Assembly (NCBI RefSeq): GCF_900149695.1
Contig: NZ_LT703003.1
Coordinates: 1,240,001 to 1,304,000 of the forward strand
Direction of reading: 5' to 3'
DNA from: Anderseniella sp. Alg231-50
Lineage (GTDB): Bacteria > Pseudomonadota > Alphaproteobacteria > Rhizobiales > Aestuariivirgaceae
DNA length: 64,000 nucleotides
Shown one piece after another: positions 36,724 to 42,299 of this stretch. The notes below the pieces were generated by a model. The model was not told the origin of the DNA. It did no database searches and worked only from the letters and a program-made list of their open reading frames with translations. Positions within the stretch are counted from its first letter, which is position 1. Every line of letters starts with the position of its first letter. Both the position numbers and the translations under genes were made by a program.

Positions 36724-37650
36724 CTAAACGGCGAACTTCGCAGGATCAACATTTGCGCCGCATATCACGGCACAGATTTTTTCATTGTCTTTCGGTCTGT
36801 AAATTCCGCCCAGCAAGGCAGCCAGCACCGTTGCGCCGCCGGGTTCGGTCATGATGCGGTGATTGTGCCAAAGCCACATCTGGGCAGCTGCAATAGCTTC
36901 ATCGGACACCAGCAGGCTGTCATCGACATGAACCTGCGCGATGTCAAAAGCCATGGCGCCGATCTCCGATGCGCCGAGCGAATCGGCAGCGATACCCGAA
37001 ACGTCGACCCTGGCAGGCGCGCCTGCTGCACGTGCGGCATGCAGGGCAGTGCAGGTTTCCGGCTCGACGGAGATGATGTTGGCGCGCTCGCCATACCAGG
37101 CAGCAATGCCGCCGATCAGGCCGCCACCGCCCACGGCGACGAGAACCGTATCGAGACCGGGGCACTGGTCTTCCAGTTCAAGGCCGAGCGTGCCCTGGCC
37201 GGCAAGGGTCGGTTCGGCGTTGTAGGCATGAACCGAGACCGCACCGGTGCGGGCGATGTGGGCTTCACACAAGGCAAGCGCTTCTGCGTAGTTTGCGCCT
37301 TCCTGTATGACTTCAGCGCCATAGGACTTTATCCGGGCGACCTTGGCCGGCGCAGATATCGAGGGCACGAAGATGTGTGCCTCAAGTCCCAGGGCCTGGG
37401 CCACATAGGCAACCGCAGCCCCGTGATTACCACCGGAGGCTGCGGCAACACCTGCGGTTTTCGCCGCATCATTGCCGATCAGCGAATTGAATGCGCCGCG
37501 CGTCTTGAACGAACCGGAATACTGAAAGCATTCGAGTTTCAGGATGACCGGCTGTTCGATGTCCGGCAGTGCAACCTGCATGACAGGTGTGCGGCAGATG
37601 CGCGATGCAATGCGTGCGTAGGCGAGCTCAATGTCTTTTTGGGTGATCAT
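36724..37650 (-). CDS. Threonine/serine dehydratase family, PLP-dependent
   Basis: 308-residue fold-type II pyridoxal-phosphate enzyme that deaminates threonine or serine (or racemises serine). The PLP lysine is Lys49 in YSGSFKTRGAFNSL; the cofactor-phosphate loop is VGGGGLIGGIAAW; ASGGNHGAAVAY contains the carboxylate-binding Asn/Ser. No C-terminal ACT-type regulatory domain is present, so it is the short catabolic/racemase class rather than feedback-regulated IlvA. Exact substrate is open. It is the downstream neighbour of folD (31 bases), which may indicate cotranscription in one-carbon/serine metabolism. Confidence 0.88.
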   Translation of the reverse strand: MITQKDIELAYARIASRICRTPVMQVALPDIEQPVILKLECFQYSGSFKTRGAFNSLIGNDAAKTAGVAAASGGNHGAAVAYVAQALGLEAHIFVPSISAPAKVARIKSYGAEVIQEGANYAEALALCEAHIARTGAVSVHAYNAEPTLAGQGTLGLELEDQCPGLDTVLVAVGGGGLIGGIAAWYGERANIISVEPETCTALHAARAAGAPARVDVSGIAADSLGASEIGAMAFDIAQVHVDDSLLVSDEAIAAAQMWLWHNHRIMTEPGGATVLAALLGGIYRPKDNEKICAVICGANVDPAKFAV

Positions 37651-37680: not shown

Positions 37681-38598
37681 CTATAGCGTGGAGAAGCCGG
37701 TGTCATAGTGGCTCTTTTGTGCGCGCGCGGCAACCAGTGCATTGCGCATCAGGATTGCAACCGTGACAGGGCCGACACCGCCGGGAACGGGCGTGATCCA
37801 GCCGGCTGTTTCAAGGCAGGCATCGAAGTCCACATCGCCAACAGTTTTGATTTCACCGTCCACCTCAACCTGGTTGATGCCGATGTCTATGAGCGCGGCT
37901 CCCGGTTTGATCATGTCCGCGGTCACCAGCTTCGGCTTGCCGACAGCTACAAACACCGCGTCGGCGCGCCGTGCATGCATGGCCACCGAACGGGTCATGT
38001 GATGGCACACGGTGACGGTGGCACCTTCGGCCATCAACAGGAACGCGATCGGCTTGCCGACAATTTCCGAATGGCCGATGACAACCGCTTCAAGGCCTTC
38101 CAGTTTCAAACCGGTGCGGCGCAGCAGTTCAACCGACGCCATGGCGGTGCACGGACCCAGCGACAGATCGCGATACACGATATTGCCGATGGAGGCGGGG
38201 TGCATGCCTTCAACGTCTTTCATGGGATGGATGGCGGTCTGCAGGGCGCGCATGTTGAAGTGTTCCGGTACCGGGCGCTGCAGGATGAGGCCGGTTATGC
38301 GCGGGTCGGTATTGCAGGCATTGATCGCTGCAGTGATTTCCTCAGCGCTGATCGAAGCGGAAAAGTTGCGTTCCTCGAACTGGATGCCGGCGCGTTCCGC
38401 GACCCGGGCCTGGTTGCGTACATAAAGTGCCGCTTCCGGCACGTCGCCGATGGTCATGGACACCAGCTTGACCGGCCAGCCGGCAGAGGCCAGCTCGCTG
38501 ACACCTGAGCTGACTTCGCTCAGGATTTCATCTGCTACAGGCTTGCCGCGCAGGACATTGTGCGGGGCGGGAGTGGCGGTTGCGGCTAAGGCAGTCAT
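37681..38598 (-). CDS. folD: FolD-like methylene-THF dehydrogenase with altered catalytic residues
   Basis: 305-residue member of the methylene-tetrahydrofolate dehydrogenase/methenyl-THF cyclohydrolase family. Overall motifs are recognisable: YVRNQARVAERAGI, LILQRPVPEHFN, KDVEGMHPASIG, GHSEIVGKPIAFLL, DIGINQVEVDG and WITPVPGGVGPVTVA. However, the catalytic lysine of the YVxxK motif is replaced by Gln63, DVDG is changed to DVEG, and PCTP is PCTA. In characterised FolD enzymes the lysine is essential for cyclohydrolase activity, so this protein may only act as a dehydrogenase or have another substrate. AGGAAC precedes the ATG. A canonical FolD would be expected elsewhere. Confidence 0.85.
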   Translation of the reverse strand: MTALAATATPAPHNVLRGKPVADEILSEVSSGVSELASAGWPVKLVSMTIGDVPEAALYVRNQARVAERAGIQFEERNFSASISAEEITAAINACNTDPRITGLILQRPVPEHFNMRALQTAIHPMKDVEGMHPASIGNIVYRDLSLGPCTAMASVELLRRTGLKLEGLEAVVIGHSEIVGKPIAFLLMAEGATVTVCHHMTRSVAMHARRADAVFVAVGKPKLVTADMIKPGAALIDIGINQVEVDGEIKTVGDVDFDACLETAGWITPVPGGVGPVTVAILMRNALVAARAQKSHYDTGFSTL

Positions 38599-38674: not shown

Positions 38675-39373
38675 TCATGCATTGATCTCCATGCGAAGAC
38701 CGCGGGCATCCAGCTCGGGTATGGCAGGAAAAACAATGTTATGACCACTGGCGATACGGCATGCCGACCATGCGCAGGCGCAGGCATCGAGAATGTCGTC
38801 GTCTGCGGCCTGTGACTTCTTCCACTGCGGGTGCTGCAGCCTGGCCAGGGGAAATCCGCCGGCCATCAGCAGCGCGCGGCGAAGCGCAGCGCCGTCAGCG
38901 GTTTTCTTGGCGTGCTGTACTGCGTACCCGTTATTCATGGCGCAAAACGCCACTTCAGGATGGATTTCGAACACCCGGGACTGCGATTGCGGTGTGATGG
39001 CTGCATCGACCTCACGCATTTTGGGGAACAGCATGAATGCCTGCTTGGGGAACTTCCGGCCCAGTATCCGGGTGTTGATTTCGCAGGCGTCGCGGTAATC
39101 ATCGGTCATGACGGCATCGCGGCAGGGGACCGGAAAGACCGATGATCGGCGTGGACCGATATACCGGCGCGCCAGAGCCTCGCAGGACCGCGTTCTGTCG
39201 GAAGGAAAACCGATCGGCATGTCCACGCCGATGTGAGTGGCGTCAGTGTCCAGTGCAGTGCGAATGTCCGGAATGATGCTGGCGCGCGGTGTTGCATCGG
39301 CCTTGCCGGACCACGACACCATCACCCACCCCGCCTTGCAGCCATCCAGTCCAACGAACAAATTCTCAGGCAT
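38675..39373 (-). CDS. DUF429 domain protein
   Basis: 232-residue cytosolic protein of the DUF429 family (predicted RNase H-like fold). The start ENLFVGLDGCKAGWVMVSW, then THIGVDMPIGFPSDR with its conserved Asp residues, RRSSVFPVPCRD and the Cys/Trp-rich end (DDDILDACACAWSACRIA) are family features. No function has been established for most members. Its start overlaps the 3' end of pdxY by 8 bases, implying coexpression. Confidence 0.88.
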   Translation of the reverse strand: MPENLFVGLDGCKAGWVMVSWSGKADATPRASIIPDIRTALDTDATHIGVDMPIGFPSDRTRSCEALARRYIGPRRSSVFPVPCRDAVMTDDYRDACEINTRILGRKFPKQAFMLFPKMREVDAAITPQSQSRVFEIHPEVAFCAMNNGYAVQHAKKTADGAALRRALLMAGGFPLARLQHPQWKKSQAADDDILDACACAWSACRIASGHNIVFPAIPELDARGLRMEINA

Positions 39374-40205
39374 TGGTGGAGCGCACCGAGGTTATGTTGC
39401 CGGTGTGAGGCGGCTGGTCGATCAGGTCGTTCCAGGCGGCGAGGTCAAGCTCGTCGCCTGCAGACAGCGCCGTGGCTTCAACGACCCGGAATGCAGTGTT
39501 GCCGGCATGCAGCAGTGCATCCCTGGGCGACGATTTGAGAATCCGGGCCGCGAATATGCCGGCAAACAGGTCGCCGGTGCCGTGTGGCGGGTCGGGAAAG
39601 GCGAGAGTTTCATGCAAGGTTGCAGACCCGGCCTCGACCAGCAGATTGCCGATGCCGAGCGTGTCCGGGAAGGCCGATGTCACGATAGCCGTGTCGGCCC
39701 CGAGGGAGCGTGCCGCATGCACCATAGAGGTGTTGTCGCTGCTTTTGTCACCGGTCAGCACATCAAGTTCAAACCGGTTCGGCATGGCGATGTCGGCAAG
39801 CGGCAGAAGATGCGTCTTGATCGCTGCGATAACCTCGTCCGCTACATATGTGCCGTATGAATCAGCACACACCGGATCGACGAGGACCTGAAACTGCTGG
39901 CGGGCATCCTGCAGGCGCTTGATGAAATCGGCCGTTGCCGTAACCTGGTCCGCGTCACGGAAATACCCGGTCATCACCAGGTCGATCTCACGGCGCCACT
40001 CCGACCGTTCAAAGCTTGCCAGCATATCGGTGACGGCCTGGGCCGGGGTGATCATGCCCGATGGTTTGCCATGACCTGGGTGATGCGCCCAGGTGACGGT
40101 GGGCACTTCCCAAACATCTACGCCTAAACGGCGCGCGGCAAAGGCGGACGCCGTGTTGCCGATATAACCGCGTGAAATGCGCGAGGAGATGGAGACGATG
40201 GCCAT
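39366..40205 (-). CDS. pdxY: Pyridoxal kinase
   Basis: 279-residue ribokinase-fold enzyme that phosphorylates pyridoxal to PLP. VSISSRISRGYIGNTASAFAARRLG is the substrate-binding start, VPTVTWAHHPGHG the pyridoxal lid, and PPHGTGDLFAGIFAAR contains the anion-hole GTGD with the catalytic Asp. DVLTGDKSSD and ANRFELDVL fit pyridoxal kinases. It provides the cofactor for enzymes such as the nearby PLP-dependent dehydratase. Overlaps the DUF429 gene by 8 bases. Confidence 0.91.
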   Translation of the reverse strand: MAIVSISSRISRGYIGNTASAFAARRLGVDVWEVPTVTWAHHPGHGKPSGMITPAQAVTDMLASFERSEWRREIDLVMTGYFRDADQVTATADFIKRLQDARQQFQVLVDPVCADSYGTYVADEVIAAIKTHLLPLADIAMPNRFELDVLTGDKSSDNTSMVHAARSLGADTAIVTSAFPDTLGIGNLLVEAGSATLHETLAFPDPPHGTGDLFAGIFAARILKSSPRDALLHAGNTAFRVVEATALSAGDELDLAAWNDLIDQPPHTGNITSVRSTNA

Positions 40206-40368
40206 GGGGTTTGTGCGGTTTCAAACGGTGTCGGGAAACTTGTGAGCTGTCAGTATGTCCGAATGGTTGCAGGGTGGCTAGATGGCTTTGATCAATCCAC
40301 CCTTGTTATTGTGCGCTGCAATATATTATGAACGGCGCACATGGAGATTGTGCAGGGGAATAGCTTAC

Positions 40369-41247
40369 ATGACTGTCAGGCCGCGCCGCAGTGTTTTGTA
40401 TATGCCGGGGTCCAATACCCGCGCGCTGGAAAAGGCAAAGACGCTTGCCGCCGATACGCTGATCCTTGACCTGGAAGATGCGGTTGCGCCGTCGGCCAAG
40501 GCTGAAGCGCGCGGCTTCGTGTGTGAGGCGGTGAAGGTGGGCGGCTATGGCAGGCGCGAACTGGTCATCCGTATCAATTCGCTGACATCCGAATGGGGCC
40601 TGGATGATCTGTCAGCCGCTGTGCAGGCTGGCCCGGATGCCATCCTGGTGCCGAAAGTTTCCACACCGTTTGATATAGCAACCGTCGACAAGGCAATGGC
40701 GGATGCGCCGGAAACGCTATCCATCTGGGCCATGATGGAAACACCGCTGGCCATGCTGAACGCGCGCGAAATCGCATCTGCGACGTCTGAATATGCCCGC
40801 TTTGAGTGCATGGTGATGGGCACCAATGACCTCGCCAAGGAAACCGGCGCTGGCCTGGGCGGCGATCGGGTTGCCATGCTGCCATGGCTGATGACCTGCG
40901 TGGCGGCAGCGCGCGCCTATGGCCTGGTGATTGTCGACGGCGTCTACAACGATTTCAGGAATGATGAAGGCTGTGCCAGCGAATGCGAGCAGGGCCGCCT
41001 GATCGGCATGGACGGCAAGACACTGATCCACCCGGGCCAGATCGCGCCGGCCAATGCGGCCTTTGCGCCATCGCCGGAGCAGATAGCAGCGGCCAATGAC
41101 ATCATTGCGGCGTTTGCCCTGCCGGAGAATGCCGGCCTTGGCGCCATCAATCTCAATGGCCGGATGGTCGAACTGTTACATTGTGACATCGCGAAAAAGA
41201 CGGTTGCCATGAGCGAGGCGATCTCGGCACTGGAGGCAGCATCATGA
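40369..41247 (+). CDS. CoA ester lyase, (3S)-malyl-CoA thioesterase/malyl-CoA lyase family
   Basis: 292 residues of the HpcH/citE TIM-barrel family. The ATG at 40369 follows AGGGGAA and gives TVRPRRSVLYMPGSNTRALEKAK, the family start. Arg residues (VIRINSL), the Asp/Glu metal ligands (LILDLEDAVAP, IWAMMETPLAML) and IHPGQI are visible. Its stop overlaps the mesaconyl-CoA hydratase gene by 4 bases (ATGA), which points to the ethylmalonyl-CoA pathway. In that pathway one paralogue cleaves beta-methylmalyl-CoA (Mcl1) and another hydrolyses malyl-CoA (Mcl2); the length fits Mcl2 better, but I do not decide. Confidence 0.85.
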   Translation: MTVRPRRSVLYMPGSNTRALEKAKTLAADTLILDLEDAVAPSAKAEARGFVCEAVKVGGYGRRELVIRINSLTSEWGLDDLSAAVQAGPDAILVPKVSTPFDIATVDKAMADAPETLSIWAMMETPLAMLNAREIASATSEYARFECMVMGTNDLAKETGAGLGGDRVAMLPWLMTCVAAARAYGLVIVDGVYNDFRNDEGCASECEQGRLIGMDGKTLIHPGQIAPANAAFAPSPEQIAAANDIIAAFALPENAGLGAINLNGRMVELLHCDIAKKTVAMSEAISALEAAS

Positions 41248-42299
41248 GCATGGCATCGGCCAAAACCACGTCTGGTAACTTCTTTGAGGATTTTTCCGTC
41301 GGCCAGGTCATCCGGCATGCGGTCCCGCGTACGGTGGGCGAGGGCGAACGCGCGCTTTATACCGGGCTGTACGGCATGCGCTGCGCCGTGCAGTCGTCGG
41401 ATGCCTTCGCCAGGGCAATCGGGTATGCCGAAGCCCCGCTGGACGACATGCTGGTGTTCCATATTGTATTCGGCAAGACCGTGCCGGATATTTCCCTCAA
41501 TGCCGTCGCCAATCTGGGATATGCCGATTGCCGCTTTCTGAAACCGGTGTTTGCAGGAGACACGCTGCATTCGCAGTCCGAGGTCATCGGCGTGAAGCAG
41601 AATTCAAACGGCAAGACCGGCGTGGTCTATGTGCGTTCGACGGGGACGAACCAGAACGGTGAACCGGTGCTGGAGTTTGTGCGCTGGGTCATGGTGCGCA
41701 AGCGTGATGCGGCATCGAACGCGCCTGATCCGGTCGTGCCGGAATTGCCGGACCATGTATCGCCCACCGATCTGGGTTCAGCGTGTCCGGTGATTGATCC
41801 GGCACTGTGGGATGCCGGTCTTTCCGGTTCGGCGCATTTCTGGGACGATTATGAAACCGGTGAGCGCATTGATCATGTCGACGGCATGACGGTGGAAGAA
41901 GCCGAACACATGCTGGCAACAAGGCTCTATCAGAACACCGCGAAAGTGCATTTCAACCAGTTCACCGAGGGCCAGGGCCGGTTTGGCCGCAGGCTGATCT
42001 ATGGCGGGCATGTGATTTCGCTGGCCCGTGCGCTGTCGTTCAACGGCTTGGCCAACGCGTTCCATATTGCAGCCATCAACGGCGGTGCGCACGTGGCACC
42101 ATTGTTTGCCGGTGAAACGGTTTTCAGCTGGTCCGAGGTGCGCGACACCGCAAGACTGGACGGCCGCGATGATGTCGCCGCCCTGCGCTTGCGCACTGTC
42201 GCGACCAAGGATGCACCGTGCAGTTCATACCCGGAAACCGGCGACGACGGCGTTATTCTTGATCTCGATTACTGGGCGCTGATGCCGGTCAGATCATAA
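41244..42299 (+). CDS. mch: Mesaconyl-CoA hydratase (double MaoC)
   Basis: 351-residue protein made of two MaoC (hot-dog) domains. The first has FFEDFSVGQVIRHAVPRTVGEGE and SSDAFARAIG; the second has DDYETGERIDHVDGMTVEEAEHM, VHFNQFTEGQGRFGRRLIYGG and HVISLARALSFNGLANAF. These sequences match the mesaconyl-C1-CoA hydratase of the ethylmalonyl-CoA pathway that I know from Rhodobacter sphaeroides. It makes beta-methylmalyl-CoA for the neighbouring lyase. The start overlaps the lyase stop by 4 bases. Sits 113 bases upstream of sdhC. Confidence 0.91.
   Translation: MSMASAKTTSGNFFEDFSVGQVIRHAVPRTVGEGERALYTGLYGMRCAVQSSDAFARAIGYAEAPLDDMLVFHIVFGKTVPDISLNAVANLGYADCRFLKPVFAGDTLHSQSEVIGVKQNSNGKTGVVYVRSTGTNQNGEPVLEFVRWVMVRKRDAASNAPDPVVPELPDHVSPTDLGSACPVIDPALWDAGLSGSAHFWDDYETGERIDHVDGMTVEEAEHMLATRLYQNTAKVHFNQFTEGQGRFGRRLIYGGHVISLARALSFNGLANAFHIAAINGGAHVAPLFAGETVFSWSEVRDTARLDGRDDVAALRLRTVATKDAPCSSYPETGDDGVILDLDYWALMPVRS

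Follow-up and report, generated by a model that had tools for sequence, protein, structure and literature searches.

A conserved, lysine-free FolD subfamily in several phyla, probably tied to catabolic one-carbon oxidation

Judged from its sequence, a gene of Anderseniella sp. Alg231-50 encoding a FolD homologue is a member of a conserved subfamily, here called Q-FolD, which occurs in several phyla and lacks the catalytic lysine of the family. The subfamily is probably tied to catabolic one-carbon oxidation, for example to the burning of methylamine methyl groups.

Results

The gene and its neighbours

The gene occupies positions 37681 to 38598 of the stretch of DNA that was analysed (the window, 64,000 nucleotides). 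The plus-strand frame from 37681 is interrupted by stops; the minus strand contains an intact open reading frame of 305 amino acids with its ATG at 38598. These coordinates and the motifs YVRNQ (residues 59-63, with Gln63 as the last), DVEG (128-131) and PCTA (149-152) agree with the original prediction, from which the strand was missing. The product matched the Pfam domains THF_DHG_CYH (97.8 bits, cut-off 32.8, E 6.1e-28) and THF_DHG_CYH_C (196.3 bits, cut-off 27, E 2.7e-58). It stayed below the curated NCBIfam FolD cut-offs in all 25 listed of the 30 matched models, the best score being 273.7 bits against a cut-off of 421 (PRK14189). The AlphaFold model (pLDDT 90.4) had FolD and MTHFD2 as top Foldseek matches with TM values of about 0.9, and the protein is thus predicted to have the FolD fold. 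Its nearest named relatives, at 93-94% identity, are from Anderseniella MAGs (L003, L004).

The FolD homologue is one of four consecutive genes on the minus strand, spaced by -8, 76 and 30 bases, of which the pyridoxal kinase gene (39366-40205; TIGR00687, 146 bits, cut-off 144.5) is likely the first. This gene overlaps by 8 bases the gene of a DUF429 protein (38675-39373, recognized by ORF and Pfam), which lies 76 bases upstream of the FolD homologue. The next gene downstream, after a gap of 30 bases, encodes a serine/threonine dehydratase (36724-37650; NCBIfam PRK08246, 410 bits, cut-off 331), next to which the FolD homologue had been proposed to work. The adjacency of the two genes stands, but this neighbour is a local one, seen in 10 of the 80 related loci, all within the window's own clade of the tree. 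No C1 demethylases are among the neighbours of the Q-FolD gene in the window itself. The DUF429 gene separates the kinase and FolD genes; in more distant kin a soxB-like amine oxidase gene lies upstream of the kinase gene. At 40282-42299 of the window, genes for a CitE/HpcH-type lyase and a mesaconyl-CoA hydratase-like protein adjoin with a 4-base overlap.

Altered residues and conservation of the subfamily

The key residues of the human enzyme are Tyr52, Lys56, Gln100, Leu101, Asp125, Gly273 and Gly276, and the ligands of the NADP 2'-phosphate in human MTHFD1 are Arg173, His196 and Ser197 (PMC3368264). The role of Asp125 and the importance of the Lys, Gln and Asp are also described in PMC3338484. 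In the window protein Gln63 (codon 38410-38412, minus strand, as for all codons given here) replaces the catalytic Lys (human Lys56, E. coli Lys54), Arg108 (38275-38277) replaces human Leu101, changing QLPLP to QRPVP, and Glu130 (38209-38211) replaces the pterin-binding Asp (human Asp125, E. coli Asp121). The positions of the 2'-phosphate ligands are taken by His176 (38071-38073, for Arg173), His199 and His200 (37999-38001, for Ser197); of the three ligands only the His is kept. In human numbering, L101R, R173H and S197H had escaped the original prediction, and D125E had been noted only as DVEG.

A first homologue set consisted of the FolD-family frames of the fetched loci, near-copies included, those above 300 bits being regarded as close. 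Column 63 of this set was Gln in 93 of the 94 close homologues (one gapped) and Lys in all 20 others. After removal of identical sequences and addition of more genomes, the 153 distinct FolD-family proteins had Gln in 88 cases, Lys in 64 and a gap in one. Lysine was absent from this column in all 89 subfamily rows (88 Gln, 1 gapped), in agreement with the predicted loss from the YVxxK motif. Arg108, Glu130 and His176 were each present in 89 of the 89 distinct subfamily rows and His200 in 87, whereas the same columns of the 64 Lys-type rows contained Leu (54), Asp (64), Arg (63) and Ser (60). Tyr59 and Gln107, the counterparts of human Tyr52 and Gln100, were unchanged across 31 aligned sequences, and the PGGVGP motif and the remaining NAD(P) domain were conserved in the Q-FolD alignment. 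The subfamily thus retains the Tyr, the Gln and one 2'-phosphate ligand, with the Lys, Leu, Asp, Arg and Ser replaced.

In a maximum likelihood tree of the 153 proteins (quick search, LG+C20), the whole Q set, including the gapped row, was on one side of a single branch with an SH-aLRT value of 100. Two long Lys-type rows from Inquilinus join the tree beside the Q set and may be misplaced. The carriers are labelled in the records as Alphaproteobacteria, Gammaproteobacteria, SAR324, Verrucomicrobiota and Kiritimatiellota, a spread that the original prediction had not noticed. The Q-FolDs of Mycobacterium sp. KBS0706 (L028) and Mesoflavibacter sp. (L044) cluster with those of Inquilinus and Pacificispira; these two records are probably misnamed.

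The dN/dS ratio of the window gene was 0.046-0.066 relative to three close relatives, and 0.072 and 0.150 relative to two more distant ones. Values in this range (0.046-0.150) indicate that Q-FolD evolves under purifying selection and has not begun to decay. A chance substitution or a pseudogene is ruled out by the conservation of the columns together with the low dN/dS, and the altered active site looks like specialisation rather than decay. A search of literature titles and abstracts, a weak one in which many terms matched the word 'fold', did not find a lysine-lacking FolD subfamily.

A second FolD in the carrier genomes

The only other FolD-family match in the window's genome is a canonical FolD (G000:C1:1115534-1116382), 41% identical to Q-FolD and carrying YVRNK, DVDG, PCTP and GRSNIVGKP. 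This rules out Q-FolD as the only FolD of the genome and bears out the earlier suggestion that it is a second one. In 50 carriers drawn from the best 80 of 371 homologue matches, a second FolD-family gene was found in 49; the lysine was read in 43 of these 49 second FolDs, and in two more (G077, G079) the second FolD was a divergent Lys-bearing form. The carrier without a second gene is a 2.0-Mb MAG (G081). In the search of relatives 13 of 14 carriers had a second match, and an 89%-complete genome (G008) showed the Q type only. Since nearly any genome is expected to have a FolD of this kind, its presence says little.

A stand-alone cyclohydrolase of the FTCD_C type (PF04961) was rejected as the usual partner: it was found in 5 of 51 carriers and was absent from the window's genome. 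In two Inquilinus-type genomes (loci L154 and L155 of G079 and G077, respectively) the divergent FolD (YAAAK, LELPLA, GRGRAVGRA) directly adjoins an FTCD_C cyclohydrolase gene. It is possible that this pair represents another split of dehydrogenase and cyclohydrolase, an exception that is telling, though small.

Neighbourhoods in related loci

The gene surroundings were compared in the best 80 of the 371 matches, which are not a random sample, with flanks of up to 6 kb, some of them cut by contig ends. Neighbour genes were called with a home-made script, which kept 112 of 114 FolD frames, and the counts given below are approximate. The labels mgs-, DMGDH/FAD-GcvT-, MttB- and GbcA-like are based on family matches below the curated cut-off, on gene order and on known pathways.

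Fhs was in the flank of 17 of the 80 loci. Nine loci had a run of three N-methylglutamate-synthase-like genes, in the order GS-III-type ligase (where the contig reaches), amidotransferase-, GXGXG- and glutamate-synthase-type genes, a 129-aa gene, Q-folD and fhs. Other flanking genes encoded FAD-GcvT demethylase-like proteins (8 loci), MttB-like proteins (5), an MTHFR-pterin-binding fusion (5), the formate channel FocA (5), GbcA-like Rieske oxygenases (4) and corrinoid proteins (3). At least one of the eight tallied C1 families was present in 27 of the 80 loci and a soxB-like amine oxidase in 11 further ones, all in the window's clade, with neither in the flank of 42 loci; these are raw, uncontrolled counts. 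Read by eye, Q-FolD was within 5 kb of Fhs in 11 of 50 genomes versus 6 of 50 for Lys-FolD. Methyl-group demethylases, Fhs and formate dehydrogenase, the partners found elsewhere, were not in the original prediction, but the genomic context fits the repurposed role in one-carbon metabolism that it had suggested.

Lys-FolD directly adjoins Q-FolD in four loci (L070, L073, L156, L163), the first three of which (L156 being from genome G127) have the order fhs, Q-folD, Lys-folD. A plasmid of Ponticoccus alexandrii carries in a row a formate dehydrogenase pair (fdhF), fhs, Lys-folD, Q-folD and tdm, and on a Paracoccus aminovorans plasmid Q-folD adjoins a BCCT transporter gene. In three Kiritimatiellota loci (L053, L057, L076) Q-FolD is the sole FolD in the flank, with Lys-FolD elsewhere in the genomes.

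Two conserved neighbours were observed besides. The 129-aa gene between the mgsC-like gene and Q-folD (L045:5315-5701, and L050, L051, L055, L064, L065, L074, L079 and L081) had no match in NCBIfam at 1e-10 or in Pfam at 1e-5. The fusion of MTHFR, DUF5981 and a pterin-binding domain lies near Q-folD in L053 (7026-9476, 817 aa), L048, L049, L057 and L076, and is accompanied by FocA, fhs and a corrinoid protein in L053, L057 and L076.

Co-occurrence and the window's own genome

Among 192 alphaproteobacterial genomes, the window's own included, 12 were carriers, defined by a match to Q-FolD above 300 bits; for four carriers (the window's own genome, G127, G160 and G290) the Gln itself was read. 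Fhs above the cut-off was present in 12 of 12 carriers versus 77 of 180 others (Fisher p 6e-5), and a DMGDH-like demethylase, with E 1e-90 as the limit, in 12 of 12 versus 55 of 180 (Fisher p 2e-6; no more than five candidates were scored initially in the listed genomes); both p values ignore kinship, the 12 carriers spanning 10 families. In six of the ten carrier families, Fhs and the demethylase are both present in sister genomes free of Q-FolD (G132, G237, G288, G246, G240, G202) as well, so that Q-FolD is an optional extra and the pathway does not require it. In the carriers drawn from the best matches, Fhs was found in 48 of 51 (47 of 50 plus the window's genome). An mgsC-like protein was rejected as a general partner, its association being weak (4 of 12 carriers versus 15 of 180, p 0.02) at a threshold, E < 1e-250, that was chosen after the list was seen.

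In the window's genome Fhs is encoded at G000:C1:1197003-1198667. About 700 bases away, on the opposite strand and with one small gene between, there is a gene for an 837-aa FAD-GcvT demethylase-like protein, and within 12 kb of Fhs there are genes for a formate dehydrogenase alpha subunit (over the cut-off) and an FdhD-like protein (just under it). With the Fhs-linked demethylase as query, five places in the genome matched with E values of 1e-90 or lower, and with an amine-oxidase query ten places matched (frames of 807-852 aa, the 837-aa gene included). Contig 2 encodes a protein 89% identical to the gammaproteobacterial mgsC-like protein. With Fhs, formate dehydrogenase and demethylases present, the genome has the components of a THF route leading from methyl groups to CO2. 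An fhs double mutant of Ruegeria pomeroyi is reported to be unable to use glycine betaine as its only source of carbon (PMC4744692), an observation in favour of the THF route in that clade.

Discussion

Q-FolD is like the bifunctional FolD (EC 1.5.1.5 / 3.5.4.9) in having both Pfam domains, the fold, Tyr52, Gln100 and PGGVGP, at about 40% identity, but differs from it by Lys56 to Gln, Leu101 to Arg, Asp125 to Glu, Arg173 to His and Ser197 to His and by scores below the NCBIfam cut-offs. Because two defining residues (Lys and Asp) are absent, we file it in the FolD superfamily and not as a bifunctional FolD. From the NADP-specific MTHFDs it differs in keeping one of the three 2'-phosphate ligands. 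Animal MTHFD2 and MTHFD2L, which have a mitochondrial oxidative role, are among the best structural neighbours of the predicted model (6s4a, 6jib, 7qei). NAD use has been reported, and MTHFD2 is named bifunctional (PMC5718140). The likeness to Q-FolD is one of overall structure. Yeast Mtd1, a monofunctional NAD-dependent dehydrogenase, would belong to the same enzyme type should the preferred reading of Q-FolD as a catabolic NAD-leaning dehydrogenase be correct, but its sequence match is weak (1edz, 2.9e-10, versus 7.8e-66 for the bacterial FolD 5nhs), and it is hardly an orthologue. In Methylobacterium, dehydrogenase and cyclohydrolase are split between two proteins, MtdA and Fch. MtdA belongs to another family, and no chain of that name was among the 27 PDB matches of the window's FolD homologue; as a further difference, FTCD_C is absent from 46 of the 51 Q-FolD carriers searched.

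The residue set, as read from the alignments, fits methylene-THF oxidation with a leaning to NAD+ and weak or no cyclohydrolase activity. Use of NAD+ is probable, because two of the three ligands of the NADP 2'-phosphate are gone. A Lys-to-Gln mutant of the human enzyme has reportedly lost the cyclohydrolase and kept the dehydrogenase. Loss of the cyclohydrolase with the lysine is not inevitable, however, since the K53A mutant of Bombyx MTHFD kept both activities, with a cyclohydrolase kcat/Km of 0.097 versus 0.13 for the wild type (PMC6443876). From the residue set, the single tree branch, the neighbourhoods and the co-occurrence we infer, with a modest preference over other readings, that Q-FolD is a catabolic, NAD-leaning methylene-THF dehydrogenase with weak or no cyclohydrolase activity, which works beside the canonical FolD and hands its product over to it.

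In such a pathway the methyl groups of sarcosine, dimethylglycine, N-methylglutamate, TMAO and related compounds would reach methylene-THF through FAD-GcvT demethylases, Tdm and Mgd; alternatively, they would enter as methyl-THF through corrinoid systems and MTHFR. Q-FolD would perform the first oxidation, from 5,10-methylene-THF to 5,10-methenyl-THF, probably with NAD+. Conversion of the methenyl-THF to 10-formyl-THF would fall mainly to the cell's own Lys-FolD, and in Inquilinus-type genomes a separate FTCD_C-type cyclohydrolase may open it. Fhs working in reverse would then yield formate and ATP, and formate dehydrogenase would yield CO2 and reductant.

Q-FolD could also still be bifunctional, a catabolic NAD-linked copy of FolD in which Gln63, Arg108 and Glu130 form a compensated site. 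We regard this as a serious possibility, although on balance an unlikely one. The cyclohydrolase retained by Bombyx K53A (PMC6443876) speaks in its favour, as do the fixed set of changes, with the new Arg108 beside Gln107, and the three Kiritimatiellota loci where Q-FolD is the sole FolD in a flank with MTHFR, FocA, Fhs and a corrinoid protein (Lys-FolD being elsewhere). On the other hand, Lys56 possibly transfers a proton in the cyclohydrolase step (PMC3368264), and a bifunctional Q-FolD would be redundant in the four loci where Lys-FolD directly adjoins it. The same adjacency is what one would see if Q-FolD had little or no catalytic activity and acted as a partner protein with a folate-binding or regulating function, such as one subunit of a heterodimer with Lys-FolD. 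The conserved Tyr, Gln, PGGVGP and rest of the NAD(P) domain argue against such a role, as does the strong purifying selection, and we find it very doubtful.

It is improbable, if slightly less so, that Q-FolD uses another one-carbon carrier or substrate, or runs in a different direction, with binding in the pterin pocket altered by the replacement of Asp by Glu and of Leu by Arg. The pterin-contacting Asp, or a carboxylate at position 125, is termed invariant in MTHFDs in PMC6443876, and a Glu in 89 of 89 rows is in accord with a changed substrate, yet Glu retains the carboxylate. Moreover, the enzymes encoded nearby (Fhs, GcvT-domain demethylases, MTHFR) act on THF, and PMC4744692 describes the marine heterotrophs that it covers as lacking the H4MPT route.

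The preferred reading, a catabolic dehydrogenase beside Lys-FolD, can be taken further, though only tentatively and as an unlikely possibility. Q-FolD might represent an undescribed bacterial class, a lysine-free, NAD-linked methylene-THF dehydrogenase of FolD fold with a catalytic set of its own (Tyr59, Gln63, Gln107, Arg108, Glu130), passing methenyl-THF to Lys-FolD, perhaps in a mixed dimer.

If Q-FolD is a catabolic dehydrogenase, annotation pipelines mislabel such an enzyme as bifunctional, as seen with WP_074967161.1 and WP_031322007.1, and models of methylated-amine oxidation in sea and soil would have the wrong cofactor and hence the wrong energy yield. A survey of the family describes most bacteria as having a single FolD and reports no ancient duplication among prokaryotes at the stem of any major phylum (PMC11064299); a paralogue common to several phyla qualifies this picture as it is given there. 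The Q-FolDs also offer a natural lysine-free set for testing the cyclohydrolase mechanism, on which the Bombyx mutant and the human mutant, as the latter is reported, disagree. If Q-FolD does represent an undescribed class, the NADH-yielding burning of methyl groups would be kept apart from NADPH-linked biosynthesis within the same folate pool.
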